Source: Polyangium fumosum (GTDB lineage Bacteria > Myxococcota_A > Polyangia > Polyangiales > Polyangiaceae). Taken from it: a stretch of 64,000 bases of DNA. The DNA is taken from NCBI RefSeq assembly GCF_005144585.1, contig NZ_SSMQ01000016.1, positions 62,001 to 126,000 on the forward strand, in the 5' to 3' direction. Every line of letters begins with the position of its first letter. Position 1 is the first letter of the stretch. Made by a program: the position numbers and the translations under genes. Positions 11,898 to 50,350 of the stretch are shown in pieces. Under the pieces are notes generated by a model. That model was given only the letters and a program-made list of their open reading frames with translations. It did not search any database and was not told the origin of the DNA.

Positions 11898-11900
11898 CGC

Positions 11901-12680: not shown

Positions 12681-12727
12681 GCACCATGAAGCACATGCGA
12701 CTGGGGCGGCGTCAATCCCGCACTCTT

Positions 12728-13468: not shown

Positions 13469-13478
13469 GGCCGTCCGG

Positions 13479-23195: not shown

Positions 23196-23737
23196 GACGG
23201 CTCCTCGGGGTGTGCGCGCGAAATGCGCGGCGGTCCCCCCACGCCATCATCGCCGAAGCGCGCGCCCGAAGCTATAGGCTCGTCAAGGGCAGGGCATGTA
23301 CATCGACGCGCTCGCGCTCGTCGTCACGTACACCCGTACGCCCCCTCGTGTCGGTTCAGCGGGACACGGTTGTCCGCCGCGCGGGAAGCGTGTTACGCCC
23401 CCGAGGAGGAACCGGCGCCCGAGGGAAGCATTATCACGACATTCTCCAGCGGATATCCGGAGCCATTGGGCCTGGCGTCCTATTTGATGAGGCGAAACTC
23501 CGGACCTGCGCGCGAGCCTTCGTCCCGTCGGTGAACGTGCGGGAGTGCCGCGCTGCCACCGTCCTCCCGCCTCGCATGCTCTCCGCCCTGGACCTCGTGC
23601 TGGACCACTTCCAGGAGCTTTCTGCGGCCCCCTCTCGGATGCTCCACGGTCGGCTGTGCTGGAGACGGAAGCACAACGAGCCCCCACCGTGGCGGAATCT
23701 TCCCAAGGTTCCGCCCCGGCGCAGTAAAGTCACTCCC
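23196..23737. other. Divergent intergenic region between lipoxygenase and locus A
   Basis: 542 bp with no convincing gene. Open frames exist on both strands but show no family resemblance or start signal. It presumably holds the promoters for the lipoxygenase and for the five-gene locus A operon. The only clear structure is the inverted repeat at 23691-23715. Confidence 0.5.
23691..23715. promoter_or_regulatory. Inverted repeat upstream of locus A, possible operator
   Basis: Arms GGCGGAATCTT and AAGGTTCCGCC surround CCC and pair over 11 bases with one mismatch. The repeat ends 22 bp before the GTG start at 23738, a position suited to a repressor site or an attenuator stem. Function is inference. 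Confidence 0.35.
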
Positions 23738-24835
23738 GTGAAGGCCGGATGGATCGGGGGGCGCCGCTTCGACCTCGTGTTTTTCTTCGGCAGCGCGCTC
23801 CTCGCCGCGCTCGTTGGGGCCTTCGCGCTCGCCGTCCCGGGGGCGGTGGTGCCGCTCTTCGTGGCCTTCCTCGTCCTCGTCGACGGCCCGCACCTCGTGG
23901 CGACCTGGGCCCGCACCTACCTCGACCCGGACTTCCGCGCGCGCCGCGGCCGCCTGCTCGCCCTGAGCCTCGCGTGGCTCCTGCCCGGCCTCGCCGCGTG
24001 GTCGATCTCCCGCGCCACGGGCCTGCGCGCCCCGATCGATCTTTTCCTCCTCGTCGCCGCCCTCTGGAGCTTTCACCATAACGTCCGGCAATCGTATGGT
24101 GTCCTCGCCATCTACCAGCACCACGCGCGCACCGCGCTCCCCGCGCGCAAGACCGATCGTCTCTTCTTGCACGGCGCCCTATGGCTCGCCTTTGGCCTTT
24201 TTTCCTTCGGTCACCCGCAAAATCGTGTCTTCCTCGGATTGCCCGCGGAGCCGCCGCGCCTCCTCGCCACGCTCGGCCTCGTCCTCCTCGGCCTGCTCCT
24301 CGTCGCGACGATCGTGTATGGCGTCTACCGTCGAACCCGCTTTCGCGGCGAGGACGAACGTCCGCTCCTGTATCTGCTCGGCCCCACCCTTGGCCTCCAG
24401 CTCTTCGCGCTTTTCGTCGTCGGCTCGTTCGAGCCGCTCGTCCCGCGCCCCGCGGATCCGGAGCAGGCGTTCATGGCGTCCACGGTCGTCGGGGGAATCG
24501 TGCACGGCGTGAATTACCTCGGCATCATCGCGGCCGTCTCCAGGCGCCGTTTCGAGGGCAGCGATGCGCGCACGCTCGTGGCGTCTTTCGGGCGTCGCCC
24601 GCTCGTGGCGTATGCCGCGTTCGTCCTCGTCTCGCTCGGTTACCTCGCGCTCAATGCGGCGCGCGGCGTCCTGCCGAGCCTCGCGCCCGTCTCAGGCGGG
24701 GCCGCGCTCCCCGAGCTTTTCCTCGTGCTTTACTGGGGCCTCTTCTTCCACCATTACTACATCGATCAAAAGATCTGGCACGTGCGCGAGGATCAAACGC
24801 TCCGGTTCGAGCTGGGGCTTGGGGGCGCCTCGTGA
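23738..24835 (+). CDS. Polytopic membrane protein with His-rich motifs, locus A
   Basis: 365 residues from the GTG at 23738; the frame is open upstream but without protein character. About nine or ten hydrophobic segments cover most of the chain. Two His-rich motifs face similar positions: SFHHNVRQSYG near 109-119 and FFHHYYIDQKIWHVRED close to the C-terminus. Paired HH...Q/D motifs in a membrane protein suggest a di-iron or heme site as in membrane desaturases and hydroxylases, but the exact desaturase spacing is absent, so this is only suggestive. It is the first gene of a five-gene operon and its TGA overlaps the next GTG start (GTGA). Confidence 0.75.
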   Translation: MKAGWIGGRRFDLVFFFGSALLAALVGAFALAVPGAVVPLFVAFLVLVDGPHLVATWARTYLDPDFRARRGRLLALSLAWLLPGLAAWSISRATGLRAPIDLFLLVAALWSFHHNVRQSYGVLAIYQHHARTALPARKTDRLFLHGALWLAFGLFSFGHPQNRVFLGLPAEPPRLLATLGLVLLGLLLVATIVYGVYRRTRFRGEDERPLLYLLGPTLGLQLFALFVVGSFEPLVPRPADPEQAFMASTVVGGIVHGVNYLGIIAAVSRRRFEGSDARTLVASFGRRPLVAYAAFVLVSLGYLALNAARGVLPSLAPVSGGAALPELFLVLYWGLFFHHYYIDQKIWHVREDQTLRFELGLGGAS

Positions 24836-25545
24836 CCGACGCCCGCCTTGCGCTCGTGCTCGGGGGCAGCGGCTACGTGGGCCGCGAGGTCGTGCGTGCG
24901 CTCGCAGCCGCGGGCGCCCGGGTCGCATTCACGTACCAGCGCGGCGCCGCCCTTTCGGAGACCCTCGCCGCCGAGACGGGCGCGCGCGCTTTCCAGACGA
25001 ACCTCGCCGAACCCGCGTCAATCCGCGCGCTCTTCGACACGCTCCATGCGGAGGACGCCGCGCCCGATCTGCTCGTGCATGCCGCTGTCGTCTCCGGCAC
25101 GGGCGCGCTCGCGGATGTCACGGACGCGCTCTGGGACGAGATGCACGCGGTCAACGTCCGCTCCGTGTACGTCGCGATGCAATCGTTCGCCGCGCGGCTC
25201 GGGGGCCGGCCCGGGGACGTGGTCCTGACGGCGGCGCTCGACGGCATCGCAAAAATCCCGACGGCGGTGCATTTCGCCGCCACGCAGTCCGCGCGGCTCG
25301 GCATGACACAGGCGCTCGCCAAGGAGCTTGGCCCGAAGGACGTCCGGGTGAACCTCGTCCTGCTCGGCGCGCTCGGCGGCGGCATCTCCGAGGGCCTCGA
25401 TCCGGCGCGGCTCGCCGATTACAAACGGTACAGCGCGCTCCAGCGTGTCGGCACGCCCGGGGAGGCCGCGCGCGCCATCACGCGCCTCGCGCTCCACAAT
25501 CGATGGATGACAGGCTCCGTCCTGCCCATCACGGGGGGCTTGTGA
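24832..25545 (+). CDS. Short-chain dehydrogenase/reductase fold with lost catalytic residues
   Basis: 237 residues, start GTG at 24832 set by a GTGA overlap with the preceding stop. The Rossmann signature VLGGSGYVGREV (9-20) and the structural Asn in HAVNVRSVY (108) are present. The catalytic YxxxK is replaced by FAATQ at 148-152 (Phe for Tyr, Gln for Lys) and the catalytic Ser position reads LTAALDG. The rest of the fold, including the terminal MTGSVLPITGGL, follows FabG-like SDRs. It is therefore probably inactive as an oxidoreductase and may be a binding or dimer partner for the intact SDR encoded three genes downstream. Confidence 0.85.
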   Translation: MTDARLALVLGGSGYVGREVVRALAAAGARVAFTYQRGAALSETLAAETGARAFQTNLAEPASIRALFDTLHAEDAAPDLLVHAAVVSGTGALADVTDALWDEMHAVNVRSVYVAMQSFAARLGGRPGDVVLTAALDGIAKIPTAVHFAATQSARLGMTQALAKELGPKDVRVNLVLLGALGGGISEGLDPARLADYKRYSALQRVGTPGEAARAITRLALHNRWMTGSVLPITGGL

Positions 25546-26102
25546 CGCCGCGCTGGGTCGGGCTCCTGCTCCTCGTCGTCCTCGTCCTGCACGCGGTCGT
25601 CGCGAAAATGCCCTACGGGCTCCTGCCCGAGATGCTCTATGCCTGCCACGTGGCGACCGCCGTCCTCGCCGTCGGCGTGCTCCTCCGCAAGCCCGCGCTC
25701 GTGGTCTTCGGGTTTTCCTTCCATATCGGCGCCGGCCTCTGGGGATATCTCATCGACCTCTGCGAGACCCGCACGACGTCCTGGACCTCGGTCCTCGTGC
25801 ACGTCGCGCCGCTCGTCGTCGGCGCGCGCGAGGTCCGCCGCTCGGGCCTGCCGCGCTGGGCGCCGTGGGCCTCGTTTGCCTTCCTCGCGTCGATGGTCGT
25901 GTTCGCGTATAACACGACGCCGCCTACGCTCAACGTGAACCTCGCGCACCGGCCCTTCCCGCCCGTCGCGCGGATCACCCCGGCCCTCTGGGCCACGTGG
26001 GTGACGAACCTCATCTTCGGGTTTTTCCTCATCTTCACGACCGATTTCGTGGTCCGGAAATGGCTGAAGCGGCAATGGCAGACGCAGCAAACGAAGGCGT
26101 GA
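25542..26102 (+). CDS. Small polytopic membrane protein, locus A
   Basis: 186 residues, GTG start at 25542 overlapping the upstream TGA as GTGA. Five or so hydrophobic helices: GLLLLVVLVLHAVVA, the region MLYACHVATAVLAVGVLL, VVFGFSFHIGAGLWGYL, WAPWASFAFLASMVVF and a last one ending IFGFFLIFTTDFVV. Conserved-looking His residues occur in YACHVAT and SFHIGAG. I do not recognise the family. It is embedded between an SDR-fold protein and a radical SAM enzyme with translational coupling on both sides, so it likely works with them at the membrane. Confidence 0.75.
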   Translation: MTPRWVGLLLLVVLVLHAVVAKMPYGLLPEMLYACHVATAVLAVGVLLRKPALVVFGFSFHIGAGLWGYLIDLCETRTTSWTSVLVHVAPLVVGAREVRRSGLPRWAPWASFAFLASMVVFAYNTTPPTLNVNLAHRPFPPVARITPALWATWVTNLIFGFFLIFTTDFVVRKWLKRQWQTQQTKA

Positions 26103-27535
26103 TCCTCGGCGCCACGACGGGCCTCTGCGGGGCGTGCAAGCGCGCCGTTCCGGCCGAGACCGTGCGCGTCTCCGGCAAGATCGTCCTGCGCAAGCGCTGC
26201 GAGCTGCACGGGCCGGAAGAGGTGCTCGTGTCGAGCTCCGCGGACTGGTACGAGGACACCGTCCGCCACACCTCCGTCCTCGCGCCCCCCGCCGCGCCGC
26301 GCCCTGTTTCCGCGGGTTGCCCCTACGATTGCGGCCCTTGCGAGCAGCACGAGCAACGCAATCACCTCCCGGTCATCCCGATCACCTCGAAGTGCGACCT
26401 CGATTGCCCGATCTGCTACACGCACAACAAAAACGAGGGCGCCTACCACATGTCCGAGGGCGAGCTCGCGGCCATTCTGCGCCACCTCGACCATGTCGCC
26501 CCGGATCGGCGTATCATCAACATTACCGGTGGTGAGCCCACGCAGCACCCCGATTTCGAGCGCCTCGTCGAGATGTGCGTCTCGGCCGGCGTCCGGCGCG
26601 TCACTGTCTCCACGCACGGCCTGCGTTTCCTCCGTGACGAGGCGTTGCTCGAGCGCCTCGCCCGTATCGACGCCCGCGTCATTCTCTCGTTCGACTCCTT
26701 CGAGGCCGAGGCCAACAAGAAGATGCTCGGCGGCCATCACCTGAACGCCAAGCTCAAGATCCTCGATCTGCTGGAGAAACACGGCGTGGCCACGACGCTC
26801 CTGCCCGTGCTCGCGCGCGGCGTGAACGACCACGAGGTCGCGGCGTTCATCGACCTCGCGCTCGCGAAGGATTTCATCCGCTCCGTCGAGTTCCACCCGA
26901 TGACGTTCACGGGCCAGAGCGGCGCGAGCTTCGAGCGCAGCGCCCGCTACACGGCGTTCGACGCGCTCTCCGACATCGAGCGCCAATCGGGCGGCCGGCT
27001 CGCGGTCCGTGATTTCGTCCCTTCGCCGCTCGCGCACCCGCTCTGCTACCAGATCGCGTATCTGCTCCGCCTGAAGGACGGCCGCTGGCTGCCGTTCACC
27101 CGCTTCATGGGCCGCGAGGATCTCCGGAGCCTGCTCTCGCAGGAGCTTTACATCATGCCGGGCCCCGAGATGGAGCATATCCTCGTGGACGTGCTCAATC
27201 GCCTGTGGGCGGGGGACATCGACTGCGAGGAGACCGACGCGGTCCTCTCCGCCTTGAAGGACCTCGTCGAGCGCATGTTCGCGCCCGGCACCGACGAGGC
27301 CATCCGCATGCGTATCGCCGAGATGCACACGAAGGCCATTTACGTGCACACCCACATGGACGAGGAGAGCTTCGACACGGACCGCATTCGCCGCTGCTGC
27401 GTCGGCATGCCCGGCCCCGACGGCTCGAACGTCCCCTCCTGCGCCTACAACGTCCTCTACCGCGAGCGCGACGCGCGATTCTCCCCGCGTCCCGCGGCGC
27501 CGCTCGTGCAGCTCGGCCGGGGGAGGACACGATGA
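26099..27535 (+). CDS. Tes/MJ0619-like radical SAM protein (locus A)
   Basis: 478 residues from the GTG at 26099, chosen because it repeats the GTGA overlap used by the two genes before it, with AAGG upstream; ATGs at 26060 and 26075 are alternatives. Layout: an N-terminal knuckle C10xxC13...C34ELHG; CPYDCGPCEQHEQ with C74, C78, C81; radical SAM cluster CDLDCPIC with C99, C103, C106; GGEP 144-147; LAHPLC with C316; C-terminal CC 433-434 and C448 in PSCAYN. The CPxDCGxCxxHEQ motif just before the radical SAM cysteines and the C-terminal Cys set are those of archaeal tetraether synthase (Tes) relatives, enzymes that join unactivated lipid carbons. The second Cys of PCSHPxC is missing here. Coupled to the SDR at 27532. 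Confidence 0.85.
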   Translation: MILGATTGLCGACKRAVPAETVRVSGKIVLRKRCELHGPEEVLVSSSADWYEDTVRHTSVLAPPAAPRPVSAGCPYDCGPCEQHEQRNHLPVIPITSKCDLDCPICYTHNKNEGAYHMSEGELAAILRHLDHVAPDRRIINITGGEPTQHPDFERLVEMCVSAGVRRVTVSTHGLRFLRDEALLERLARIDARVILSFDSFEAEANKKMLGGHHLNAKLKILDLLEKHGVATTLLPVLARGVNDHEVAAFIDLALAKDFIRSVEFHPMTFTGQSGASFERSARYTAFDALSDIERQSGGRLAVRDFVPSPLAHPLCYQIAYLLRLKDGRWLPFTRFMGREDLRSLLSQELYIMPGPEMEHILVDVLNRLWAGDIDCEETDAVLSALKDLVERMFAPGTDEAIRMRIAEMHTKAIYVHTHMDEESFDTDRIRRCCVGMPGPDGSNVPSCAYNVLYRERDARFSPRPAAPLVQLGRGRTR

Positions 27536-28275
27536 GCGGGCGGCTCGCGGGGAAACGTTGCCTGGTGACGGGCGGCTCGCGGAACCTCGGCCGCGCGATT
27601 GCATTGGCCTTCGCGCGGGAAGGGGCGCGCGTGGCGTTCACGTACCACACGCGGGAGGATGCGGCCGAGGAGACACGGGCGCTGCTCGAAGCCGCGGGCG
27701 CTTCGCCGCTCGTGCTCAAGGGCTCGGTCTCGGACGCGGCGCACGTGGCGGCGGCGGTGAAGGCGGTGGAGACGGCGTACGGCGGCATCGACGTGCTCGT
27801 GAACAATGCGGCGCTGACGCAGGTCCTTCCGATCGCGCTCCTCGAAGAGGCGGAGTGGGACGCGGCGATGGACACGAACGTGAAGGGGCCGTACCTGTTC
27901 TCGCGCGCGGCGCTGAAATCGATGATCCGCGCGAAGAAAGGCCACATCCTGAACGTGGGCTCGTTCGGCGCGGACCGCGTGCTCGACGCGCCGGTCCATT
28001 ACGCGGCCTCGAAGGCGGCGCTCGTCGGGTTCTCCCTGGCGCTCGCGAAGGAGATCGGCCGGTATGGAATCGCGGTGAATTGCCTCGTCCCGGGCCTGCT
28101 CGAAACGGGATTGTCCGCGCGGCTGCCGAAGCACCGCGTCGAGAGTTACGTGGCGCAGGCGGCGCTGGGGAGGCTCGGGACGGTGGAGGAGGTCGCGGAT
28201 CTCGCGGCGTGGCTGGTGTCGGACGAGAACTCGTTCATGACGGGCGGGCAGGTCGTGATCGACGGGGGGCTCTGA
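27532..28275 (+). CDS. FabG-like SDR coupled to radical SAM gene (locus A)
   Basis: 247 residues; ATG at 27532 overlaps the previous TGA (ATGA) and has a GGGAGG ribosome-binding site. Full SDR set: cofactor loop VTGGSRNLGRAI, NNA in VLVNNAALTQ, catalytic Ser in LNVGSFGADR, YxxxK in HYAASKAALVGF, and the terminal GGQVVIDGGL. It should reduce a 3-oxoacyl thioester or a related carbonyl with NAD(P)H. It is the same length and close in sequence to the SDR at 49025, which is likewise coupled behind a radical SAM gene. Last gene of the locus A operon; the ACP gene lies convergent 13 bp beyond. Confidence 0.92.
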   Translation: MSGRLAGKRCLVTGGSRNLGRAIALAFAREGARVAFTYHTREDAAEETRALLEAAGASPLVLKGSVSDAAHVAAAVKAVETAYGGIDVLVNNAALTQVLPIALLEEAEWDAAMDTNVKGPYLFSRAALKSMIRAKKGHILNVGSFGADRVLDAPVHYAASKAALVGFSLALAKEIGRYGIAVNCLVPGLLETGLSARLPKHRVESYVAQAALGRLGTVEEVADLAAWLVSDENSFMTGGQVVIDGGL

Positions 28276-28288
28276 GTCGCCCCGTTCG

Positions 28289-28693
28289 TCACACCACCAC
28301 GCCCCGTTTCTTCGCTTCCACCATGTTCACGAACGTCTGCACCGAGAAGAGCCCCAGGATCTGCACGGCCCGAAGCCCCGGCTCGATGCGGTCCTTCGCC
28401 TCCGGCATCAGCTCGCGCAGCCGTTCGAGGCCCTTGTCGCTGACGACGCCGCCCGGCGCGAACTCCTCGTCGCTCATGTCGCCGCGCGCGGCCTTTTGCA
28501 TCTCGCCCCGCGTGATCTGGATGCCGAACGTCCGCTCGATCTTGAACACGATATCGAGGTAATCGAGCGACTCCGCGCCGAGGTCGGCCATGAGGAGCGA
28601 CTCGTTCTTCACCGCGGCCGGATCGAGGGCGAGCGCTTCGGCGACGATGAGGCGGACTTGCGCGGCGATCTCGGGGTCGTTGGCTTCGGACAT
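28289..28693 (-). CDS. Acyl carrier protein with C-terminal extension
   Basis: 134 residues. The phosphopantetheine motif is DLGAESLDYLDIVFKIERTF, with Ser42 as the attachment site. The first 85 residues match a type II ACP, and the rest (LRELMPEAKDRIEPGL, then LGLFSVQTFVNMVE) is an extension of about 45 residues ending in a helix. Extended ACPs of this form occur in secondary fatty-acid or polyketide lines rather than primary FAS. Convergent to the locus A SDR, and the only ACP found in the window, so it may serve both loci A and B. There are 19 bp between it and the aldo/keto reductase gene upstream. Confidence 0.87.
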   Translation of the reverse strand: MSEANDPEIAAQVRLIVAEALALDPAAVKNESLLMADLGAESLDYLDIVFKIERTFGIQITRGEMQKAARGDMSDEEFAPGGVVSDKGLERLRELMPEAKDRIEPGLRAVQILGLFSVQTFVNMVEAKKRGVVV

Positions 28694-40564: not shown

Positions 40565-41230
40565 TCAGTCCTCCACCCATTGCACGACACGATCGATGGG
40601 CTTTCGCCCGGGCGGCGGCGCGTCGCCGAGGGGGTAGCCGATCGCCACGGCGCCGACCATCCGGAACGGCTCCTTGATGCCGAGCAGCGCTTCGATCTCG
40701 GGCTTCGCGATCATAGGGCCGGCCATCCAGCAAGCGCCGAGGCCCTCGGCGTGCGCCTGGAGCAGCATCGCCATCACGGCCGCGCTCGTCGAGCAGAGCT
40801 CGGCCTGCATGCTGCGGGCCGTGTGGTACTGCGCAGGATCCCCGCCGCCCGAGGTGATGAGGTCGGCGATGAGGTCGGGATAGTCACGCCATTGAGGCAC
40901 CACGATCGCCGCGGCGCTCTCCAGCGGCTCGTGGAAAAAATCGCCGTAATTGGCGAAATCCTCGGCGTGGTGCCCGCGGTGGATGATGGCCTTGATCTCG
41001 TCGGCCCGCGCCCGCACGGCCGCGGCGATTTGCTTGCGTTTGTCTGCGGCCGTGACGACCGTGAAGCGCCAGGGCTGCCGGTTCGTGTTCGAGGGCGCCG
41101 TGATCGCAGCTTGCACGAGCCGGGCGAGCACCTCCTTCGGGACAGGTTCGTCCGCGAATTCGCGGCGCGACCGCCGCGTTTCGAGCCACGCCAGCATCCC
41201 CGGGCCCTGCACCCCGCCCGGGCCGCTCAT
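40565..41230 (-). CDS. Nitroreductase-family FMN enzyme (locus B)
   Basis: 221 residues from the ATG at 41230, which overlaps the FabG stop as ATGA. Nitroreductase signatures: [15 protein letters not shown] and [16 protein letters not shown] at the FMN site, [10 protein letters not shown] and [16 protein letters not shown] near the C-terminus. Family members reduce nitro, quinone or enoate groups with NAD(P)H, and some oxidise or dehydrogenate biosynthetic intermediates. As the last gene of a ketosynthase operon it may set the redox state of the acyl chain, for example as an enoyl reductase substitute, but this is inference. Confidence 0.9.
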
Positions 41231-41982
41231 TCCAGCTTGAATCCGCCGTCCACGTTCCATATCTGTCCCGTCACGTAGCTCGCCTCGTCCGAGACGAGGA
41301 AGGCGACCACCGCCGCGATCTCCTCGGGCCGGCCAACACGCTTGAGCAGGATGCGTTTCGCGAGCTCGTCGGGCGCGAGGGCCCGGAGCTCGGCCGTCAT
41401 GTCGGTCTCGACGAGGCCCGGCGCCACCGCGTTCACGCGCACGCCGCGCGGCGCGAGCTCGACCGCGAGCGCGCGGGTGAACGACTCGACGGCGCCCTTC
41501 GACGCAGCATAAAGCGACTGCCCGCGGCCCGGGCGTTGCGCCGCCACGCTGGAGACGTTGACGATCACGCCGCGCCGCCGCGAGATGAAGCGCCGCGCGG
41601 CCTCGCGGCAGCAGGCGACGACACCCGCGGCGTTCGTGTCGAAGACGTGATCGTAATCGTCGTCCGTGCTCGCGCCGAGGAGGCCGTCGCGCGTCACGCC
41701 GGCATTGCAGACGAGTGCGTCGAGCGGCCCGAGCGTAGTTTCCGCTTGCTCGAAGAGGGCCGCGACCTCCGCGGGGCGCGAGACATCGGCGCGAAGAGCG
41801 ACGGCCCGCGCCCCGTGCGCCTCCACGGCGGCCACGGTCTGCCGGGCCGCGTCCTCGTCGTGGCGATAATCGACGGCGACGGCATATCCGCGCCGCCCGA
41901 GCGCCTCCGCGACGGCGCGCCCGATCCCGCGCGAGGCGCCCGTGACGAGCGCGACGCGGGAGCGCTCCTTGGGCTCGCTCAT
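41227..41982 (-). CDS. 3-oxoacyl-ACP reductase, FabG-like (locus B)
   Basis: 251 residues, ATG at 41982 overlapping the upstream TGA. SDR set complete: [19 protein letters not shown] in [12 protein letters not shown], catalytic Ser in VNVSSVAAQ, Tyr and Lys in LYAASKGA, and the C-terminal [16 protein letters not shown]. This is closer to classical FabG than the two radical-SAM-linked SDRs. It should reduce the 3-oxo group made by the ketosynthases of the same operon. Confidence 0.94.
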
Positions 41983-43169
41983 GGAACCTCCACGCGCAGG
42001 GCGCCGGCGAGCCCCGGCATGCCGGCCGAGAGGGCCAGGGCCGAGCGGGCGCGTGTCTCCTCGGCGCGGGCGAGCGGGCGGAGCGGGCCCGCCGAAGGAC
42101 GATCGAGGCCCGCGATGGGCGGCAGCGCGCCCGCGCGGAGCGCCTCGGCGAGCAGGATCGCCTGCACGACCGCCGTCGCGCCGCCGAGCTGGCCCGTGGA
42201 AGCCGTCAAGGCGAGCAGCGTCGCGGACGGGCCGAGCACGTCGGCGAGCGCCGCCCGTTCGGCCGTATCGCGCTCGGGCGAGGCGAGCGCAGCGCCATCG
42301 ACGATCATGTCGCCCACGGAGAGACCGGCCGCGAGGGAGGCGAGCGCGCGCGGGCTGGGAAAGCCTTCGGCGCCGTCGGCCGTCGCCGCAGCCGAGACGA
42401 ACGAGAGCGCTCGATCCCCCGCGTCGTCGGGCCGCTCCAGCACGACGGCCGCGGCCGCTTCGCCGGGCACGAACCCCGCCGCGCCCTCGTCGTACGGGGC
42501 GACGACCGCCTCCGTGGTCGCGGCGCTCGTCGCGGCGCCGGACATGCCGAGCGAGAGGAGCGTCTCCGGCTCGACGAGCGTGTCGTACGCGAAGACGAGC
42601 GCCGCATCGACGCTGCCGACGGCGAGGGCGATGCTGGCCGCCCGGAGCGCCTGCGCCCCCGCGTTCGAGCCCGCCGTGGTCGTGCCGTCGCCCTTGCCGC
42701 CGACGTCGATCGACAGGAGCGCGTGCGCGTTGTTCGACAGGTGAAAGAGCATCCAGAACGGGTGCAGCAAGGAAAACCCCTGCGCCCATGCGCCCGTCGC
42801 GCGCGCGTCGCCCGTTTGTCGTTCGAGCACGGGCATCAGATCGTCCCAGTGCGCGCGCAAGCCACCATAGCCGCAAAAAAGCCCGAGCCGCGCGCCTTTC
42901 GCCGGCGTGCCCGCGCGGGCGAGGGCCTCGGCCCCGACCTCCATGCCGAAGAGCCCCATCCGTTTGACGAATTTGCGGTGCTTCGTCGGCCGCGGCGCGC
43001 CGGGGATCGTGGCGGCGAGGCGGCAGGTGTAGGTGCTCGCGTCGAAATGGGCGTTCGGGGCCGCCGCGCGCTCGCCCGCGAGCAGCCTCCGGAGCACGGC
43101 CCGGGCGTCGTCGCCGAGCGGGGTGCGCAGGGAACACCCCGTCACGGCCATCCGGCCCGCGTGCGTCAT
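41979..43169 (-). CDS. Ketosynthase-fold protein without active site, chain-length-factor-like (locus B, KS1)
   Basis: 396 residues from an ATG overlapping the prior stop (ATGA). The thiolase-like fold is recognisable by [13 protein letters not shown] near 233-245, but the nucleophile region reads [10 protein letters not shown] (166-175) with no Cys, the HGTGT motif is absent, and the usual KxxxGH region is TASTGQLGG (322-330) with Gln for His. All three catalytic residues are therefore lost. Chain length factors of type II polyketide synthases show similar losses and pair with an active KS. The intact partner is probably KS2, encoded immediately upstream. Confidence 0.87.
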
Positions 43170-44443
43170 CGAGGTCTCCCGAGGACCACGCTGACGTTTT
43201 GCCCGCCAAACCCGAAGGAATTCGAGAGCACGTACTCGACGCGTCGCTGGAGGGGCCGGGGGCCGATCACGTGGATCGGGCACTCCGGATCCGGCTCCTC
43301 GAAATGCGCCGTCCCGGGGAGCAGGTCCCGCGTGAAGGGGAGCAAGCACGCGGCGAGCTCGATCGCTCCGGCGGCGGCCATCAGGTGGCCGACGGCGCCC
43401 TTGATGCTCGACGTGGGCACGTCGCCGAAGAGCGCGCGGATCGCCTTCGCCTCGGCCATGTCGTTGAGCGGTGTCCCCGTGCCGTGGGCATTGACGTACC
43501 CGATGTCCGAAGGCGCGAGGTTGGCACGACGAACAGCTCGTTCCATGGCCGCGAGCGCGCGCGATCCGTCGGGGCGGGGCGCCGTCGCGCGGTAGGCGTC
43601 CTGCGTGGTCGCGGAGCCGGCGAGGACCGCGAGGAGATCCGCGCCGCGCGTCCGCGCCCGCCCCTCCTCCTCGACCACGAACATCGCCGCGCCCTCGCCC
43701 ACGACAAGCCCGTCGCGCCGCCGATCGAAGGGCCTGCACGCCGAGGGCTCGGCGCGCGGCGAGGGGGCGCCGAGGCGCGACATGCCACCGATGCCGAGCG
43801 GGTTGACCATCGAGTCGGCCGCGCCGCAAAGGACGACGTCGGCCGCGCCCCGCTCGATCAGCGAGGCCGCGTGTGCGACGGCCGTGCCGCCCGCCGCGCA
43901 AGCCGAGACGTGCACGGCGACGCGGCCCGACAGGCCGAGCACGCCGCGGATCTTCTCGGCCGTGAGGTCGACACGCGAGCGGAATCGAACGCCCTCCGGG
44001 CCCGCGAGATCCCCCGCGCCGATGCGGATCTCGTCGCCGTCGAGCTGATCCGCGAAGTCCTCCAGGAACGCCTGTTCGAGCCCGAGCCCGATGGAGAGCG
44101 CGGCCCTGCGCTCGGCCGTCCCGCACCGCGCATGGCGCCACGCCTCGGCCGCGGCGATGAGGCCAAAACACACTTTGCGATCCCGCAGGAGGCCCGAGTG
44201 CTCCCACGCCGCGGCCTCGCCGATGTGGAGCAGGACGCCGCGGTGTTTTTCGAGGAGCGAGGCGCTTGTTTTTTCGATCGGCACCTCGCCCGCGACACGC
44301 GTGGGGAAGGTGCGCGCATCGAAATTTCGGATCGGGCCGATCGCGCTCCGGCCCGCGGCGAGGCCGTTCGCGAGCGCGTCGTAGCCGACGCCGAACGCGC
44401 TGACGGCGCCGACGCCCGTGATCACCGCGCGCCGCCGGCCCAT
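43166..44443 (-). CDS. Beta-ketoacyl-ACP synthase, FabF-like (locus B, KS2)
   Basis: 425 residues, ATG at 44443 overlapping the previous stop by one base. Catalytic set complete: Cys182 in [12 protein letters not shown], His320 in [11 protein letters not shown], Lys348 and His353 in [15 protein letters not shown], and the C-terminal [15 protein letters not shown]. It should elongate acyl-ACP with malonyl-ACP. Coupled to the active-site-less KS1 downstream, suggesting a KS-CLF heterodimer. Confidence 0.95.
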
Positions 44444-45507
44444 CACGCGCCCCCTTTCGCGAGCACGACCACCCCGAGATCCCCGTCCGGGCCCGCGGAG
44501 AGCACGAGCGCGCGCGGTTTGTCGAGGTGCGCGAGCAGGTCGAGCGTGACCGCCCAGGCGAGCGCGGGCGTCGCGGCCAGGGATTCGCCGAGGGTGAGCG
44601 AGGTGTCCACCGAGAGCTCCGCTTCGAGCACCTGGGGCAGATCCAGGAGCGCCTCGCGCGCAGGCGCGCCCCAGGGCGCGAGCACGACCACGTCGCACGG
44701 CTGATCTTCGAGCGCGTCGAGCGCGGCCGGCACGGCCGCGTCGCGCAAGACGCCTGTGCGGGGCACGAGCGTGCCGCGCGGGCGCTCGACGGGAAACACG
44801 CGCACCGCTTCCACGTAGCCGAGCGGCGCTTCGGCCGTGCTCGTGATCGCGAGCGCCGCGGCGCCTTCGGCCGGCGTGAGCCCTTGCCGCAAGAACCCTT
44901 CTCGTTCGAGCTCGGCCATCGTGACCGGGTGCAGGGCCGTGTCCGCGCCGCCGACGAGCGCGCGCTCGCACGCGCCCGACATGATCGCGGCGCACGCCTC
45001 TTCGAGCGCCGTCACCGTGCCCGTGCCGCGCGAGAAAAACGCGGCGTTCGGGCCGGCGAGGCCTTCGAGGATCGCCCCGTGGCAGAGCGTGAAGTTGTTC
45101 ATGATCTGGAACGCGAAGAGGGGGTTGCACGCGTCGAGCCCCTCGCGGCCGCACCGCGCGAGCGAGAACTGGCCGTCCTCCATGCTCGCCGCGACGAGCC
45201 GCGCGACCTCGTCCATCTCCGCGCCCGAGGCGCCGACGCCGAAGAACGCGCCGATCTCCGCGCGCGCCTCGTCCCACCGCGCCTCTTCGAGCGCGCCGCG
45301 CATCACGAGCGCCGAGAACCACGCGGCCCGCGACATCAGCTTCTTTTGCCGGATGTCCTCGGGCCGCGACGGCGCGGGCGGGGCGAGCTCGGACGGGCGC
45401 GGGAGGCTCTTTTCGAGCACGCGCTGGGCGAGCCCGCGGCCCGCGAGGCCCGCTGCGGTCAGCGTCGAGACCGCGATCACGGGGAGGCCCTTTCCGTCTA
45501 GGCGCAT
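44443..45507 (-). CDS. Divergent ketosynthase-like protein without catalytic Cys (locus B, KS3)
   Basis: 354 residues from the ATG at 45507. A ketosynthase N-terminal-like domain is suggested by FQIMNNFTLCHGAILEGLAG and NAAFFSRGTGTVTALEEACA at about 133-175, followed by ALVGGADTAL. At the place where active enzymes have a Cys before the glycine, the sequence reads RGTGTVTAL. The C-terminal half lacks HGTGT and the GH motif. At 354 residues it is shorter than active KSs. Its start overlaps KS4 by 10 bp and it precedes KS2, so it may be the second chain-length-factor-like subunit, pairing with KS4. Confidence 0.78.
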   Translation of the reverse strand: MRLDGKGLPVIAVSTLTAAGLAGRGLAQRVLEKSLPRPSELAPPAPSRPEDIRQKKLMSRAAWFSALVMRGALEEARWDEARAEIGAFFGVGASGAEMDEVARLVAASMEDGQFSLARCGREGLDACNPLFAFQIMNNFTLCHGAILEGLAGPNAAFFSRGTGTVTALEEACAAIMSGACERALVGGADTALHPVTMAELEREGFLRQGLTPAEGAAALAITSTAEAPLGYVEAVRVFPVERPRGTLVPRTGVLRDAAVPAALDALEDQPCDVVVLAPWGAPAREALLDLPQVLEAELSVDTSLTLGESLAATPALAWAVTLDLLAHLDKPRALVLSAGPDGDLGVVVLAKGGA

Positions 45508-46754
45508 CGGCTCACCACGAGGCTCGTGTTGGCGCCGCCGAACGCGAAGGCGTTGACGAGCGCTGCTTCCACGGGTTTTCGCTTCGCCGCGCCCACGACA
45601 TGGGGCAAGACGCACGCCGGATCGGGCTCCGTGAGGCCCGCCGTCGGCAAGCAGATCCCTCCCTCGACGGCTTCGAGCGCGCACAAGAAGCCGATCGCCC
45701 CCGCGCCCGCCACCCAGTGCCCGACCGCGCCTTTCACCGCGCCGACGTGCACGTTCGGGAGCGCGTCGCCGAGCGTCCGCCGGATCGCCGCGGCCTCCAC
45801 GGCGTCGTTGAGCTGCGTGCTCGTCCCGTGCGCCTGGACGTACCCGATCGCCACGCGGCCCGCGTCGTCGAGCGCGCCGCGCATCGCCCGCTCGGCCCCG
45901 TCTCCCGCTTGATCGGGCGCCGTCAGGTGAAACGCGTCGAGCGTCCGCGCGGCCCCCGCGACCTCGGCGCGCGCGTCGCCCCGCTCCGCCGCGAGCACCA
46001 CGAACGCCGCGCCTTCGCCCACGACGAACCCGTCCCGCCGCAGATCGAACGGGCACGACACGCCGCGCGCGCTGAGCGCGCCGAGCAGGCCGAATCCTAC
46101 GAGCATGAACGGATCGACGTCCGCGCCCACGCCGCCCGCGAGCGCGACGTCGCAGAGCCCGAGCCGGATGGCTTGCGTGGCCGAGACGATCGCGGCTGCG
46201 CCCGACGCGCAGGCGAGCGAGATCGTCTCGACGGGGCCCTCGGCGCCGATGCGCGCCGCGAGCGCCGAGGCGACCGCGGCGGGCGAGACTGCGGCTGCGT
46301 GCACGGCCGTCGCGAGGGCCCGCGCGTCCTCGCCGAAGCGCGCGTGATCGAAGCGCGCGCCGCCGCCCGCCGCGCGCGAGAGCGCGAAGATCGTCCTGTA
46401 CGTGGCCCGTCCGCTCTCGGCGCCGACGAACACGCCGATCCGCGAGGGCGCGGCGCTTACCCGCGCCTCGGCCCACGCCTCGTCTGCGGCGCGCCGGGCG
46501 AGCGCGAGGCGGCGATCCTCGGCTTCGTCGAGCGGGGGTTTGGGGGCGTAGCTCGGCTTGTCCGAGCGTAGCCCCCAAGCGCCGAGTGGAAAGGGGACCG
46601 TCGCCGCGACCTGCGACGGATATCCTTCGACGTCGAAATGCTGGACGGGCGCGACGGCCGATCGGCCCTCGGCGAGCGCGTCCCTCGACGCGGGCCACGT
46701 CTCGCCGAGCGGCGTGATCGCGCCTCGACCCCGCACGAAGACACGCCGCTTCAA
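45498..46754 (-). CDS. Beta-ketoacyl-ACP synthase with an embedded palindromic element (locus B, KS4)
   Basis: 418 residues from a TTG at 46754. That start overlaps the FabZ stop as TTGA, has GGAGG four bases upstream, and yields MKRRVFVRGRGAITPLG, which aligns with KS starts; an ATG at 46781 lies inside the FabZ gene. Catalytic residues: Cys182 in ISLACASGAA, His309 in QAHGTSTQLND, Lys341 and His346 in GAVKGAVGHWVAG. Residues 58-75 (GAWGLRSDKPSYAPKP region) are encoded by a REP-like palindrome also found between genes at 50372. Active elongation enzyme expected. Confidence 0.93.
   Translation of the reverse strand: MKRRVFVRGRGAITPLGETWPASRDALAEGRSAVAPVQHFDVEGYPSQVAATVPFPLGAWGLRSDKPSYAPKPPLDEAEDRRLALARRAADEAWAEARVSAAPSRIGVFVGAESGRATYRTIFALSRAAGGGARFDHARFGEDARALATAVHAAAVSPAAVASALAARIGAEGPVETISLACASGAAAIVSATQAIRLGLCDVALAGGVGADVDPFMLVGFGLLGALSARGVSCPFDLRRDGFVVGEGAAFVVLAAERGDARAEVAGAARTLDAFHLTAPDQAGDGAERAMRGALDDAGRVAIGYVQAHGTSTQLNDAVEAAAIRRTLGDALPNVHVGAVKGAVGHWVAGAGAIGFLCALEAVEGGICLPTAGLTEPDPACVLPHVVGAAKRKPVEAALVNAFAFGGANTSLVVSRCA
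46531..46581. repeat. REP-like palindrome inside the KS4 coding sequence
   Basis: About 51 bp, almost identical to 50372-50420. Outer arms TTTGGGGGC and GCCCCCAAG pair, and inner CTCGG/CCGAG pair around TTGT, with an asymmetric GTAG/CGTA bulge. The element is read in frame through KS4 (residues 58-75). Confidence 0.85.
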
Positions 46755-47218
46755 GGCTCCTCCGCGGCTCCGGTCAGCCATATGTCGAGCACCTCGCGCC
46801 GCCGCGCGAGGACCTTCGGGTTCGTCACGCGCGTGAACGCGAAGCCGAGCTCGGCCGTCGCCACGACCTCGCCGTCGACCCGCGCTTTGCCTTTCACCTG
46901 CCCGCCTTCTTCACGGGCGAGGATCGTCTCCGCTTCGAGCTCGAGTTTGTCCCCGGGCCGGACGACGCGCCGGAAGCGGGCGTGATCGATCATCGTGAGC
47001 AGCGCGTGTACGTCCTCATGCCCCTCGGCGCGCCGGGTCGCTTCGAGCAGCACGCCGCCGAGCTGCGCGAGCGCCTCGATCACGAGCGCGCCGGGCATCA
47101 TGGGGTGCCCTGGGAAATGGTCCGCGAAGGTGTCGTCGGAGAGCGACACACACTTGACACCCGTCGCGAGGCGCGGCGGTTCGAGCCGCGTGATCCGATC
47201 GAGGAGCAGGTAACGCAC
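46751..47218 (-). CDS. FabZ-like 3-hydroxyacyl-ACP dehydratase (locus B)
   Basis: 155 residues from a GTG at 47218 (VRYLLLDRITRLEP), the position expected for FabZ; the open frame continues upstream without similarity. Catalytic His34 and Glu48 lie in DHFPGHPMMPGALVIEALAQ, 14 residues apart as in FabZ. FKRVVRPGD-type segment appears as FRRVVRPGDKLELEAE, and VDGEVVATAELGFAF closes the hot-dog fold. It should dehydrate 3-hydroxyacyl-ACP to the trans-2-enoyl form. First gene of the locus B minus operon, divergent from the radical SAM gene with 64 bp between. Confidence 0.9.
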   Translation of the reverse strand: MRYLLLDRITRLEPPRLATGVKCVSLSDDTFADHFPGHPMMPGALVIEALAQLGGVLLEATRRAEGHEDVHALLTMIDHARFRRVVRPGDKLELEAETILAREEGGQVKGKARVDGEVVATAELGFAFTRVTNPKVLARRREVLDIWLTGAAEEP

Positions 47219-47270
47219 GTGCCGCGAGACTAGCAGAGCTCCTCCGGCTCGAATTGACGGCCGAGGTCCC

Positions 47271-47279
47271 AAAGGAGGT
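47271..47279 (+). promoter_or_regulatory. Very strong Shine-Dalgarno sequence for the locus B radical SAM gene
   Basis: AAAGGAGGT is fully complementary to the 3' end of 16S rRNA, four bases before the ATG at 47283. It favours this start over the ATG at 47307, which has its own GGGGAG. Confidence 0.7.
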
Positions 47280-47282
47280 AAG

Positions 47283-49028
47283 ATGCGTGCTCACGAGGGG
47301 AGCGCCATGGATTGCGTTAGCTGTATCACTCCGACCCGACAGGACCGTCCGCATACGTTTTTCCACCACGAGCGGGCGGCGTGTCCGACGTGCCGCGAGA
47401 CGCACGAGGGGCGCGTGGTGCTCCGCGGCGACAGCCCCGTGCGGCTCTTGCTTTGCCCCACGTGTGGGCCTTCGGAAGAAATTCTTCCTGGCACTGCAAA
47501 TGCCTATGTCGACGGCTTCCTCGCCCGGGGCGAGGTGCCTGAGGGGTTCGAGGGCGAGATCGAGTTCAAGGAGACGACGTCCACCTGCCCGAGTTGCCTG
47601 ACGCTGCTGCCCGCGAAGGTCGTGATCCGCGAAGGTCGCGTGTATTTCAAGAAAAACTGCGCGGCGTGTGGCCCTTCGGAGGCGCTCGTCTCGGAGGACG
47701 CGAAATATTACGTGCGAGCGTATGCGTTCGCCCGCGCGGGCACCGAGCCGCTCAAGTTCGCCACGAAGGTCGAGCACGGCTGTCCCACGGATTGTGGGAC
47801 CTGCAATGATCACGAGCAGCACACCTGCTTGCCGATCATCGAGGTCACCGATCACTGCAACCTCGAGTGCCCGATCTGCATCGTCGACAACCAGTACTCG
47901 AACCACATCGATCTCGACACGTTTGCGCGCATGATCGACACCCTCGTGGTGAACGAGGGGCAGTGCGAGTCGGTGGCGCTCTCCGGCGGCGAACCCACGA
48001 GCCACCCGCAGATCCTCGAGCTCGTGCGCATCGCGTGCCGCCCCGAGATCGGCCGCGTCGTGGTCATCACGAACGGCATCCGGCTCGGCAAGGACCGGGC
48101 CTTCGCGAAGGCGCTCAAGGAGAGCGGCGCTTACGTGGGCCTGCAGCTCGACGGTTTTACCGCCGATACCCACGAGAAGATCCGCGGGCGTGACCTCGTG
48201 AAGGAGAAGGAGGCGGCGCTCGCGGTGCTGCGCGAGCTCCAGATCCCGACGCAGATCATCTTCGTGGCGACGCGCGGGGTGAACGACGATCAGATCGGAA
48301 AGGTCGTCGAGCTCTTTCTTTCGGAGGACCATTTCCTGTCGCTGAACTTCCAACCCGCCGCGTACACGGGCCACGGCGGGGGCCTCTTCGGCCACGATGC
48401 GATGGATCGGCTCACGATCCCGGGCGTTGTGCGGCGCGTGGACGAGCAGACGGGCGGCAAGCTCAAGGTGGAGGATTTTTTTCCGCTGCCCTGCTCGCAT
48501 CCGCAATGCGTGTCGCTCACGTACCTGCTCCGCCTCGAAGACGGGACGTTCCTGCCGTTCTCGCGGTTCGTCGATTTCACGAAGCACGGCTCGCTCCTCC
48601 GTTCGAGCGCGACGCTCCCCGCGACGCCGGAGATGGAGCAGACGCTCCAGGACGTGCTCTACGACGTCTACGCGCGGCAGGATGAGATCGAGCGCGGGCC
48701 GGAGATCCTCGCGGCGCTCAAGCGCACGCTGAAGGTGATGTTCCCGGATCGGCCGATGACGCAAAAGGAGAGCTTGCTCATCGGTGAGCAGCAGGCGAAA
48801 TCGATCTTCCTGCACCATTACATGGATCGGCACGATTTCGATCTCGAACGGCTGCGCAAATGCTGCCACCATTACCCGCAGACGGACGGGCGGATCATGC
48901 CGGCGTGTGGCTTCAACATGTTCCACCGCGGCGCGGCGAAGGGGCCGGGGACGCAGACGCCGTCCTGGGGCAAGAAGCCCTGGGTCAAGGAAAACGGGAC
49001 GACGCGTCTTTCGATCGTGAGTTCATGA
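47283..49028 (+). CDS. Tes/MJ0619-like radical SAM protein (locus B)
   Basis: 581 residues. Two N-terminal Cys knuckles (C11xxC14/C34xxC37/C58xxC61 and C102xxC105/C126xxC129), then CPTDCGTCNDHEQHTC with C167, C171, C174 and C182, radical SAM cluster CNLECPIC with C192, C196, C199, GGEP 235-238, FFPLPCSHPQC with C404 and C409, and C-terminal KCCHHYP and MPACGFN Cys. All hallmark cysteines of archaeal tetraether synthase relatives are present, including PCSHPxC, which the locus A paralogue has lost in part. Tes carries several iron-sulfur clusters and a rubredoxin-like iron and makes C-C bonds between lipid tails. Coupled by ATGA to an SDR. Confidence 0.88.
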   Translation: MRAHEGSAMDCVSCITPTRQDRPHTFFHHERAACPTCRETHEGRVVLRGDSPVRLLLCPTCGPSEEILPGTANAYVDGFLARGEVPEGFEGEIEFKETTSTCPSCLTLLPAKVVIREGRVYFKKNCAACGPSEALVSEDAKYYVRAYAFARAGTEPLKFATKVEHGCPTDCGTCNDHEQHTCLPIIEVTDHCNLECPICIVDNQYSNHIDLDTFARMIDTLVVNEGQCESVALSGGEPTSHPQILELVRIACRPEIGRVVVITNGIRLGKDRAFAKALKESGAYVGLQLDGFTADTHEKIRGRDLVKEKEAALAVLRELQIPTQIIFVATRGVNDDQIGKVVELFLSEDHFLSLNFQPAAYTGHGGGLFGHDAMDRLTIPGVVRRVDEQTGGKLKVEDFFPLPCSHPQCVSLTYLLRLEDGTFLPFSRFVDFTKHGSLLRSSATLPATPEMEQTLQDVLYDVYARQDEIERGPEILAALKRTLKVMFPDRPMTQKESLLIGEQQAKSIFLHHYMDRHDFDLERLRKCCHHYPQTDGRIMPACGFNMFHRGAAKGPGTQTPSWGKKPWVKENGTTRLSIVSS

Positions 49029-49768
49029 CGAAGCTTTGTGAAGGGCACATCGCCCTGGTGACGGGCGGCGCCAAGGGCCTCGGGCGGGCGATCGCCGTGA
49101 CGCTCGCCCGCGAAGGGGCGCACGTCGGGTTCAACTGGACGAAATCGGAGGTCGAGGCGAAGGAGACGCTCGCCGAGATCGAGGCGCACGGGGTGCGGGG
49201 GTTTTCGTTTCGAACGAGCGTCCTTGACAAACAGGGGCTCGCCGCGGCCGTGAAGGAGATGGAGGGCGCGGTGGGGACCGTGGACATCCTCGTGAACAAC
49301 GCGGGCGTCTCCGACGTGGTGCCGCTCGCCTTGATGGATGAGGACGACTGGGACCGCGTGATGGATACGAACGTGAAAGGCACGTTCCTCGCTACGCAGG
49401 CCGTCCTGCGGGGCATGGTCAAGCTCCGGCGCGGGCGGATCCTCAACATCGGCTCGCTCGCCGGGGTGAAGATGATGCAGGCGCCGGTGCATTACAGCAC
49501 GGCGAAGGCGGCCATCAAGGGGTTCACCGAGTCGCTCGCCAAGGAGATCGGGCGGTACGGGATTACCGTGAACAACCTCGCGCCCGGCGTCCTGGAGGGC
49601 GGGGTCAGCGTGAATTTGCCCAAAGGTCGGCTCGACGAGTACCTCCGGCATACCGCGCTCGGGCGGCTCGGCACGTTCCAGGAGGTCGCCGAGATGGCGG
49701 CGTTTCTGGTGTCGGACCGGTCGTCGTACGTGAATGGTGCGACCATTCTGGTGGACGGAGCGGTGTAA
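49025..49768 (+). CDS. FabG-like SDR coupled to radical SAM gene (locus B)
   Basis: 247 residues, ATG at 49025 overlapping the upstream TGA. Cofactor loop VTGGAKGLGRAIAVTL, NNAG in ILVNNAGVSDVV, catalytic Ser in LNIGSLAGVK, Tyr and Lys in HYSTAKAAIKGF, C-terminal YVNGATILVDGAV. Same length and same gene order as the locus A SDR at 27532, so the radical SAM-SDR pair appears to be a duplicated module. It likely reduces a carbonyl next to the site the radical enzyme modifies, or prepares the 3-hydroxyacyl chain. Confidence 0.93.
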   Translation: MTKLCEGHIALVTGGAKGLGRAIAVTLAREGAHVGFNWTKSEVEAKETLAEIEAHGVRGFSFRTSVLDKQGLAAAVKEMEGAVGTVDILVNNAGVSDVVPLALMDEDDWDRVMDTNVKGTFLATQAVLRGMVKLRRGRILNIGSLAGVKMMQAPVHYSTAKAAIKGFTESLAKEIGRYGITVNNLAPGVLEGGVSVNLPKGRLDEYLRHTALGRLGTFQEVAEMAAFLVSDRSSYVNGATILVDGAV

Positions 49769-49792: not shown

Positions 49793-50350
49793 GTGGAAGA
49801 ACCCGAGAAAACGAAGCGGAAGAAGCGAAGCGAGCCGAAGATCCAGATCCCCCTCCGCAAGCCCTACCGGCAGCTCGTCCCGAGCTTCCTCCTGTTCGCC
49901 CTCTGCGCTGCGTTTTTCTTTCATCGTTCGAGCGTCAACGACCGGGGCCTCATCCTGAACGGCATTCTGCACTTCGAGGCGGACGGGGCGGACGTGTTTT
50001 ACGCGGTGCTCGGCGTGCTCTCCGCGGGCCTGAGCGTGATGGGCCTGCTCGGCATCGTGCGCTTCTCGCAGATCGAACCCTTCGAGCTCGTCCTCGGCGG
50101 CAAATCCTTGTCGCTCCCCTACGGACGCCCGATGTCGATGCGGGTGATCACGGTGCCGATCCGCGACATCGTTTCGGTCGGGCTGCAGCCGCCGGAGTGG
50201 CCCAAATCGATCGCCGTGCAAACGCACGACAAGGTGTACTGGATCCCGAGTTCCTGGCTGCCGAAGGAGTGGACCGCGCAGGACCTCAATGCCGCGATCG
50301 TCGAGCGGCTCCGGCGGCCCGAGGACGAGAGCGCCGCGGAAGGCGGATAG
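49793..50350 (+). CDS. Membrane protein of unknown function, PH-like C-terminal domain possible
   Basis: 185 residues from a GTG at 49793 with GGGAGAA upstream. A basic N-terminus (EKTKRKKRSEPK) precedes two membrane helices (VPSFLLFALCAAFFF and VFYAVLGVLSAGLSVMGLLGIV). The C-terminal 90 residues are beta-rich: FELVLGGKSLSLPYG, RVITVPIRDIVSVGLQ, SIAVQTHDKVYWIPSSWL, then a helix LNAAIVERL, reminiscent of bacterial PH (bPH2-like) domains. 24 bp after the SDR, so likely the last gene of the plus-strand locus B operon. Confidence 0.72.
   Translation: MEEPEKTKRKKRSEPKIQIPLRKPYRQLVPSFLLFALCAAFFFHRSSVNDRGLILNGILHFEADGADVFYAVLGVLSAGLSVMGLLGIVRFSQIEPFELVLGGKSLSLPYGRPMSMRVITVPIRDIVSVGLQPPEWPKSIAVQTHDKVYWIPSSWLPKEWTAQDLNAAIVERLRRPEDESAAEGG

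Follow-up and report, generated by a model that had tools for sequence, protein, structure and literature searches.

The window analysed here is a stretch of 64,000 nucleotides from Polyangium fumosum (RefSeq assembly GCF_005144585.1, contig NZ_SSMQ01000016.1, forward-strand positions 62,001 to 126,000; coordinates below are those of the window), taken from a genome of 12.98 Mb in 201 contigs. Our subject is locus B, which consists of a gene for a radical S-adenosylmethionine (SAM) protein, rSAM_B, and a gene for a short-chain dehydrogenase/reductase (SDR), SDR_B, whose start at 49025 sits within the rSAM_B stop, giving a 4-bp overlap. rSAM_B resembles Tes (tetraether lipid synthase), an enzyme characterised on archaeal membrane lipids that joins two inert sp3 carbons, which is among the hardest reactions known. 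Divergent from rSAM_B runs an operon of seven overlapping genes, FabZ-KS1-KS2-KS3-KS4-FabG-nitroreductase, where KS stands for ketosynthase. A paralogous pair, rSAM_A and SDR_A, lies about 20 kb upstream at locus A. An earlier, sequence-only reading had described the operon as FabZ, four KS genes and FabG; those genes are present, but a nitroreductase gene has to be added as the seventh, and only KS1 and KS3 keep a complete Cys-His-His set. The 64 bp that it had given between FabZ and rSAM_B hold for a FabZ start at 47218 and an rSAM_B start at 47283. A second possible ATG of rSAM_B at 47307 would widen the gap to 88 bp, and a purine-rich, Shine-Dalgarno-like stretch precedes both ATGs. A promoter scan of the gap region (47150–47400) found no sigma-70-like promoter, and the whole window contains no RNA family at Rfam gathering thresholds. 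Gene calls were made with our own script.

The proposal that the enzyme is Tes-like and coupled to an SDR was borne out in sequence and in fold. The 581-aa open reading frame (ORF) matches the Pfam families PF04055 Radical_SAM (E 2.9e-24) and PF23545 Zn_ribbon_HMPTM (E 6.4e-17), and it is 28–31% identical to Tes, with a phmmer E value of 1.4e-62 against the solved structure 7TOL. A first model from 12 sequences was poor (predicted local distance difference test, pLDDT, 65) and was replaced by one from 52 homologues with a pLDDT of 89.4 and a predicted template modelling score (pTM) of 0.89. Aligned with 7TOM by VIA-align, this model gave Z 43.6 and 2.8 Å over 438 residues, the next family listed standing at Z 20.1, and Foldseek matched it to 7tom at E 2.9e-38. 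rSAM_B thus has the Tes fold, a comparison made on the B model only. The protein shares 97–98% identity with its counterparts in three Polyangium sp. records.

An alignment of B-type and A-type sequences showed that the radical SAM motif CX3CX2C, the N-cluster ligands Cys73/77/80-His83 and Cys338/455/470, which we read from the alignment as the ligands of the C-terminal cluster, are kept in 52/52 B and 42/42 A rows. For these counts, rows of at least 760 aa and two rows of a third type (L090_7801, L101_6625) were dropped; the 42 A rows include A2 copies. The FFPLPCSHPQC motif is present in rSAM_B, and its second Cys (C409) aligns with Tes C338. The earlier statement that every hallmark Cys is kept therefore stands for the Cys ligands, this motif included, but two non-Cys positions differ: the labile Met439 of Tes is replaced by His, and His36 of the rubredoxin-type ribbon by Cys. 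We infer that His511 of B may bind the cluster. Tyr459, Gln268 and Arg210 of Tes are kept in B, Tyr459 in 52/52 rows. The extra N-terminal knuckles that had been noticed are indeed there, as CxxC at residues 34–37 and 58–61 (581-aa numbering), and they amount to a second copy of the ribbon, in which predicted strands 17–59 repeat 84–129 (573-aa model). This extra ribbon occurs in 16 of 59 rows (52 B-type, five outgroup, two third-type), and all 16 are close to B.

Neither enzyme reaches the NCBIfam cut-off for Tes (NF045702, 450 bits; B 265.7, A 232.9) or for TrsS (NF045646, 490 bits; B 274, A 233.5), the latter being the best-scoring NCBIfam model for both. We therefore rejected B as a true Tes or TrsS. 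Because of these scores and the changes at ligand sites, A and B are a sister group to Tes, distinct from it, and probably have a related mode of action. A pterin methylase of the MJ0619 type was also considered, but PMC9433317 could not corroborate that activity.

A neighbourhood survey, which the sequence-only reading had named as its test, found radical SAM and KS genes conserved together, both among Polyangiales and across phyla, an outcome that favors that reading. We searched 183 Polyangiales genomes for B-type enzymes (at least 425 bits) and for the Cys-less KS partner, or chain-length factor (CLF; profile A4, at least 250 bits), with thresholds set after gaps in the scores had been seen. 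The B query at E 1e-30 had matches in 55/183 genomes, those next below the gap (321 bits) being A-type paralogues; the CLF profile at E 1e-15 had matches in 38/183, the next below its gap scoring 160 bits. B-type enzymes were found in 24/183 genomes, representing 14 genera. All 24 carry the CLF, as opposed to one of the 159 others, making 25 in total. The Fisher value of 3.8e-29 ignores kinship, and the genomes are not independent. The genome with the 160-bit CLF harbors a divergent version of the cluster on one contig (G080:C17 15614-33119), with two Tes-like genes (34–35%) and a relative of rSAM3 (33%), a second radical SAM protein described below. One B match (G018:C309:44606-46093) contains a single in-frame TGA; an ORF starting further in is open, and the upstream frame is probably an artefact.

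For the cross-phylum comparison we used 79 loci (74 in-group and five outgroup Tes-like loci), which are the best 79 of 292 matches and not a random sample. Locus classes were assigned by us from identity and tree, and neighbourhoods comprise all ORFs with a match, unmatched genes being unlisted. A KS gene was present in 43/74 in-group loci; in most of the others the contig stops less than 8 kb away on one side or both, and where both flanks span 8 kb or more the count is 24/27. It was present at none of the five outgroup loci, of which only two have 8 kb on both sides. B-type genes accompanied by KS and FabZ were found in Massilia, Sorangium, Planctomycetota, Acidobacteria, Rokubacteria, Elusimicrobia, Verrucomicrobia and Bdellovibrionales; named carriers are Massilia frigida, M. 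aquatica, M. atriviolacea and M. rubra, Sorangium cellulosum So ce26 and Polyangium sp. An SDR gene directly follows B in 56/63 loci of the two main B groups. The divergent FabZ arrangement of the window recurs in 18/32 close relatives, including the four named Massilia species (14 by a positional rule, plus four whose ORF, called too long at its start, causes an overlap).

Genes for A and B sit side by side within a single cluster in S. cellulosum So ce26, in So0008-312, and in Planctomycetota, Rokubacteria, Acidobacteria and Elusimicrobia. These clusters also hold SDRs, FabZ, CLF and KS, and often FabG, a nitroreductase and an acyl carrier protein (ACP). In Sorangium they are compact and on one strand, in the order rSAM_A-rSAM_B-SDR-SDR-mem-FabZ-CLF-KS-FabG-NTR-ACP (mem, hydrophobic protein; NTR, nitroreductase). 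Pairwise distances of A and B in 29 loci are correlated with r 0.933, a value reached by none of 5000 label permutations (maximum 0.432), although shared descent of the organisms contributes to it. A tree, computed by a quick method that warned of long branches after near-identical rows had been removed (159 to 113), places A (44 rows, support 99) beside B (60 rows, support 81) with a joint support of 87, and Tes and a Brevibacillus group outside A+B. Two third-type rows fall on the A side; they represent a third tandem Tes-like subfamily on a long branch, found beside A and B in two clusters. The possibility that A and B are unrelated Tes genes was rejected, since many clusters have the two side by side and they diverge in step. 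From their adjacency in so many genomes, A and B are, as far as sequence can tell, two halves of one system that is split in the window's genome. Judged by these neighbourhoods, the pathway extends over several phyla, and the window contains two pieces of it that lie apart.

The genes of the operon and of both loci are listed in Table 1. FabZ scores 120.9 bits against NF000582 (cut-off 113; scan of a 173-aa form starting at 47272). KS2 and KS4 look like chain-length-factor partners, since their catalytic Cys is absent, and KS2 is a member of the CLF profile used for the genome survey. The operon thereby displays the KS/CLF feature of type II polyketide synthases (PKS), a complete KS beside a Cys-less partner. 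However, the best solved-structure match of KS3 and KS1 is FabF (1j3n; 230.2 and 191.2 bits), ahead of the actinorhodin KS (166.5 and 152.3 bits), so by our own measure, applied to solved structures only, they are not nearer to a PKS KS than to FabF, unlike the KS of KS/CLF type II clusters. All three catalytic residues of SDR_B (Tyr, Lys, Ser) are kept in 69/69 relatives. Five genes in a row, mem18-SDR19-mem20-rSAM_A-SDR_A, make up locus A and face the ACP gene, relatives of which adjoin KS genes in other genomes. The catalytic Tyr is also absent from five of the seven SDR19 relatives, and SDR19 is a possible non-catalytic partner. After SDR_B, positions 49793–50350 encode a 185-aa protein without a Pfam match, the relatives of which were matched in Polyangium-type loci only. 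At the window's edge (1–2180), a cyclopropane-synthase-like methyltransferase gene, cut by that edge, lies beside a gene for an AMP-binding acyl ligase.

Table 1. Genes of loci A and B, the ACP gene and the KS operon, in window coordinates.
Feature	Position	Strand	Evidence
mem18, hydrophobic protein	23576..24835	+	no Pfam match; relatives in 8/74 in-group loci, e.g. Massilia
SDR19, SDR-fold protein without catalytic Lys	24832..25545	+	Gln at Lys site in 7/7 relatives
mem20, small hydrophobic protein	25542..26102	+	no Pfam match; recurs in cluster (neighbour matches)
rSAM_A, paralogous Tes-like radical SAM protein	26075..27535	+	Pfam; phmmer to 7tol, E 2.6e-57; tree
SDR_A, 4-bp overlap with rSAM_A	27532..28275	+	catalytic Tyr and Lys in 7/7 relatives
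ACP, DLGAESLD motif	28289..28693	-	Pfam PP-binding, E 1.8e-6
Nitroreductase-family flavoprotein, last operon gene	40565..41230	-	Pfam Nitroreductase, E 7.4e-35
FabG-like ketoacyl reductase	41227..41982	-	family scans and relatives
KS4, Cys-less KS partner	41979..43169	-	Asp/Glu at Cys site in 14/14 relatives
KS3, complete Cys-His-His	43166..44446	-	kept in 40/40 relatives, compact-cluster KS included
KS2, Cys-less chain-length-factor-like partner	44443..45507	-	Arg at Cys site in 15/15 relatives; Pfam ketoacyl-synt, E 9.6e-11
KS1, complete Cys-His-His	45498..46754	-	kept in 17/17 relatives
FabZ-like dehydratase, operon gene 1	46751..47218	-	Pfam FabA-like domain; NCBIfam NF000582 fabZ
rSAM_B, Tes-fold radical SAM protein with duplicated N-terminal metal ribbon	47283..49028	+	Pfam PF04055 and PF23545; phmmer to 7tol; model vs 7tom
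SDR_B, FabG-like SDR	49025..49768	+	Pfam adh_short; 4-bp overlap with rSAM_B

Further parts recur near A and B. Two aminotransferases of the clusters were scanned; their best NCBIfam match is PigE of prodigiosin synthesis (272.8 and 388.1 bits), but the cut-off of 850 is far from reached and they are not PigE. rSAM3, a SPASM-like radical SAM protein (SPASM domain at E 0.002 only, below cut-off), was found near A/B in 25/74 loci and in 17 of the 24 B-type Polyangiales genomes, and is thus not essential to the core. Fatty-acid-hydroxylase-like proteins occur in 7/74 loci; one of them is nearest to OlsE, below cut-off. The window's genome carries additional copies of such genes elsewhere. Contig C150 encodes a third Tes-like enzyme, of the A type (G000:C150:66813-68222), together with an SDR, a class III aminotransferase and an SDR19 relative, while C167 holds an aminotransferase, rSAM3 and a hydroxylase-like gene, and C135 another aminotransferase. 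A fourth Tes-family protein on C5 (G000:C5:14033-15544; protein 11854-13722) scores 346 bits against the Tes model (cut-off 450), the best in the genome, yet in the alignment it lacks the N-cluster Cys of Tes and of A/B. Its neighbours show no match to the window's genes.

We consider it very probable that locus B, locus A and the KS operon serve one shared biosynthetic pathway, and quite likely that the Tes-like enzyme acts on the operon's chain or on a lipid made from that chain. The best explanation as a whole, to which we assign a probability of about one half, is an ACP-dependent pathway of the type II fatty acid synthase/PKS kind in which Tes-like enzymes make C–C bonds at unactivated chain carbons. 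By the gene families present, the two KS/CLF-type pairs would build an ACP-bound acyl or polyketide chain together with FabG, FabZ, ACP and possibly the nitroreductase, and A and B would then work on that chain or on the resulting lipid. If B behaves like Tes, it would use SAM to abstract a hydrogen from an unactivated sp3 carbon, the carbon radical would be held as a C–S bond on the C-terminal 4Fe-4S cluster, and a second SAM would lead to a bond with another carbon, which could close a ring within the chain or link two chains. The coupled SDRs would modify a carbonyl or alcohol group close to the bond so formed, class III aminotransferases would add an amine in many versions, and the product would be an unusual lipid-like molecule, often amine-bearing. 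The C–C bond-forming step, taken alone, is tentative, falling a little short of even. It follows the mechanism reported for Tes, with a C–S intermediate on the C-terminal cluster, two SAM and a C–C bond as outcome (PMC9433317).

Several observations weigh against this explanation. At the position of the labile Met439 of Tes, 52/52 B and 42/42 A rows have His (94/94), which means that the catalytic cluster is not the same as in Tes; the five outgroup rows carry three Met, one His and one Val at this site. According to PMC9433317, Met439 and Tyr459 are completely conserved in archaeal Tes homologues, Met439 in 1000. The A enzymes depart further, as Tyr459 is found in 0/42 of them, Gln268 is His in 35/42 and Arg210 is Leu in 25/42. 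A is in reach in 47/74 in-group loci (15/27 with both flanks), and two Bdellovibrionales loci have B with KS, CLF, FabZ, FabG, ACP and two SDRs and no A in reach. KS is out of reach in three loci (L084, L088, L097) despite 8 kb on both sides; the contig of L097 appears by its length to belong to a surveyed genome (G007) that has its CLF on a different contig. An SDR directly follows B in 0/11 loci of the deeper groups (Bdellovibrionales; Verrucomicrobia/Planctomycetota). A class III aminotransferase match is present in 30/74 in-group loci (15/27 with both flanks), and about half of the loci have none in reach; since a match means an ORF with its best hit to a class III enzyme in a small reference set, at 30–75% identity, ordinary class III enzymes may be included. 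Support for the B clade is moderate (81, or 89 without one Bdellovibrionales row). Finally, of the 24 Polyangiales genomes, 14 have the CLF and B on one contig and 10 have them on different contigs, so that linkage is not universal, yet co-occurrence is universal among the 24.

Given the altered residue at the cluster and the SDR coupling, two other reactions are real rivals to C–C bond formation. In the first, A and B would oxidize the chain by radical chemistry, turning CH or CHOH into C=C or C=O, and SDR and class III aminotransferase would then lead to an amine. The SDR coupled to B in the main groups (56/63 loci) and the aminotransferase matches (30/74, with the two scanned enzymes nearest to PigE) are consistent with such a route. 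However, fold and ligands match Tes, an SDR would suffice to form the ketone, and two Bdellovibrionales loci have no aminotransferase in reach. We regard oxidation as unlikely.

Biotin synthase and lipoyl synthase insert sulfur from an iron-sulfur cluster, and in the second rival A and B would likewise place sulfur of the C-terminal cluster in the chain, yielding a thiol, thioether or sulfur ring and no C–C bond. Tes itself forms a C–S intermediate on that same cluster (PMC9433317), and with His for the labile Met in 94/94 rows the cluster chemistry may differ. On the other hand, the M439A variant of Tes stays active (PMC9433317), so the ligand change need not alter the reaction, and no gene for a sulfur carrier stood out among the unlabelled genes that recur around 20 loci, although no systematic search for one was made. 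Sulfur insertion thus also appears rather unlikely.

It is less probable still that B performs ordinary membrane-spanning lipid synthesis, coupling phospholipid tails to products of the iso-diabolic-acid or branched glycerol dialkyl glycerol tetraether (brGDGT) type while the KS operon merely feeds fatty acids. Zeng et al. listed 456 bacterial Tes homologues and suggested a role in brGDGT synthesis (PMC8941075), an activity that a Black Sea study describes as unconfirmed (PMC11868695). Such lipids are not known to need a dedicated ACP, a KS/CLF pair or the second Tes-like enzyme and the aminotransferases that are often present here, and both B and A lie below the Tes cut-off, with the C5 paralogue fitting the Tes model better (346 bits). 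That the radical SAM gene belongs to another pathway and is merely co-regulated with the KS operon, without a shared substrate, would accord with the 10/24 genomes in which the CLF is on a different contig, but is very improbable given the 24/24 co-occurrence in 14 genera, several phyla and several gene orders.

Among the closest known systems is Tes (GDGT-MAS, MJ0619, 7TOL/7TOM), with which B shares the fold, the radical SAM motif, the N-cluster Cys3His, three C-cluster Cys, the ribbon domain, Tyr459 and Gln268. B differs by its low identity, by Met439 to His and His36 to Cys, by the duplicated ribbon, by its place beside KS/ACP genes and an SDR, and by its pairing with A. Mss, a bacterial membrane-spanning lipid synthase, is reported to keep the Tes catalytic architecture; KS/ACP genes are unmentioned in the excerpt of that paper, and Mss is set beside A/B by description only (PMC13274423). 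In Kuenenia, ladderane-type clusters likewise hold fatty-acid and radical SAM enzymes beside several KS paralogues, a part of them changed at the active site (PMC2649909). However, one of the candidates for ladderane cyclisation, Kuste2803, has a B12-binding domain, whereas Pfam finds none in A or B (other cluster genes were not all scanned, and anammox genomes were not searched by name), which speaks against a ladderane pathway. Aryl polyene and cispentacin systems use KS-CLF or type II PKS-like machinery, as here (PMC8358021, PMC10698177). KS-rich clusters of ladderane type have been mined in Myxococcota, Verrucomicrobiota and other phyla, with no function assigned in the excerpted text (PMC9902471), and some of these may be the present cluster. 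Among the matches listed in the open-licence literature, none described Tes-like enzymes that go with a KS/ACP cluster. This agrees with the impression of the sequence-only reading that the combination is unlike described pathways, and the pathway is apparently undescribed so far.

As a long shot, the products could be bola-shaped (two-headed) amino lipids, in which KS, CLF and ACP would provide the chain, aminotransferase and SDR an amino-alcohol head, and A and B would weld chain ends at sp3 carbons. If so, the enzymes would be candidates for a step that a 2024 review gives as unknown, the coupling in two-headed sphingoid-like natural products (PMC11767167). Since named strains carry the cluster, its product and reaction are directly testable. 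The B and A enzymes represent a bacterial branch of the Tes fold, with an altered labile-ligand site in 94/94 rows, that in several phyla goes together with a compact assembly line of the fatty-acid type, and genes of the A and B types are probably not to be taken as markers of brGDGT producers.

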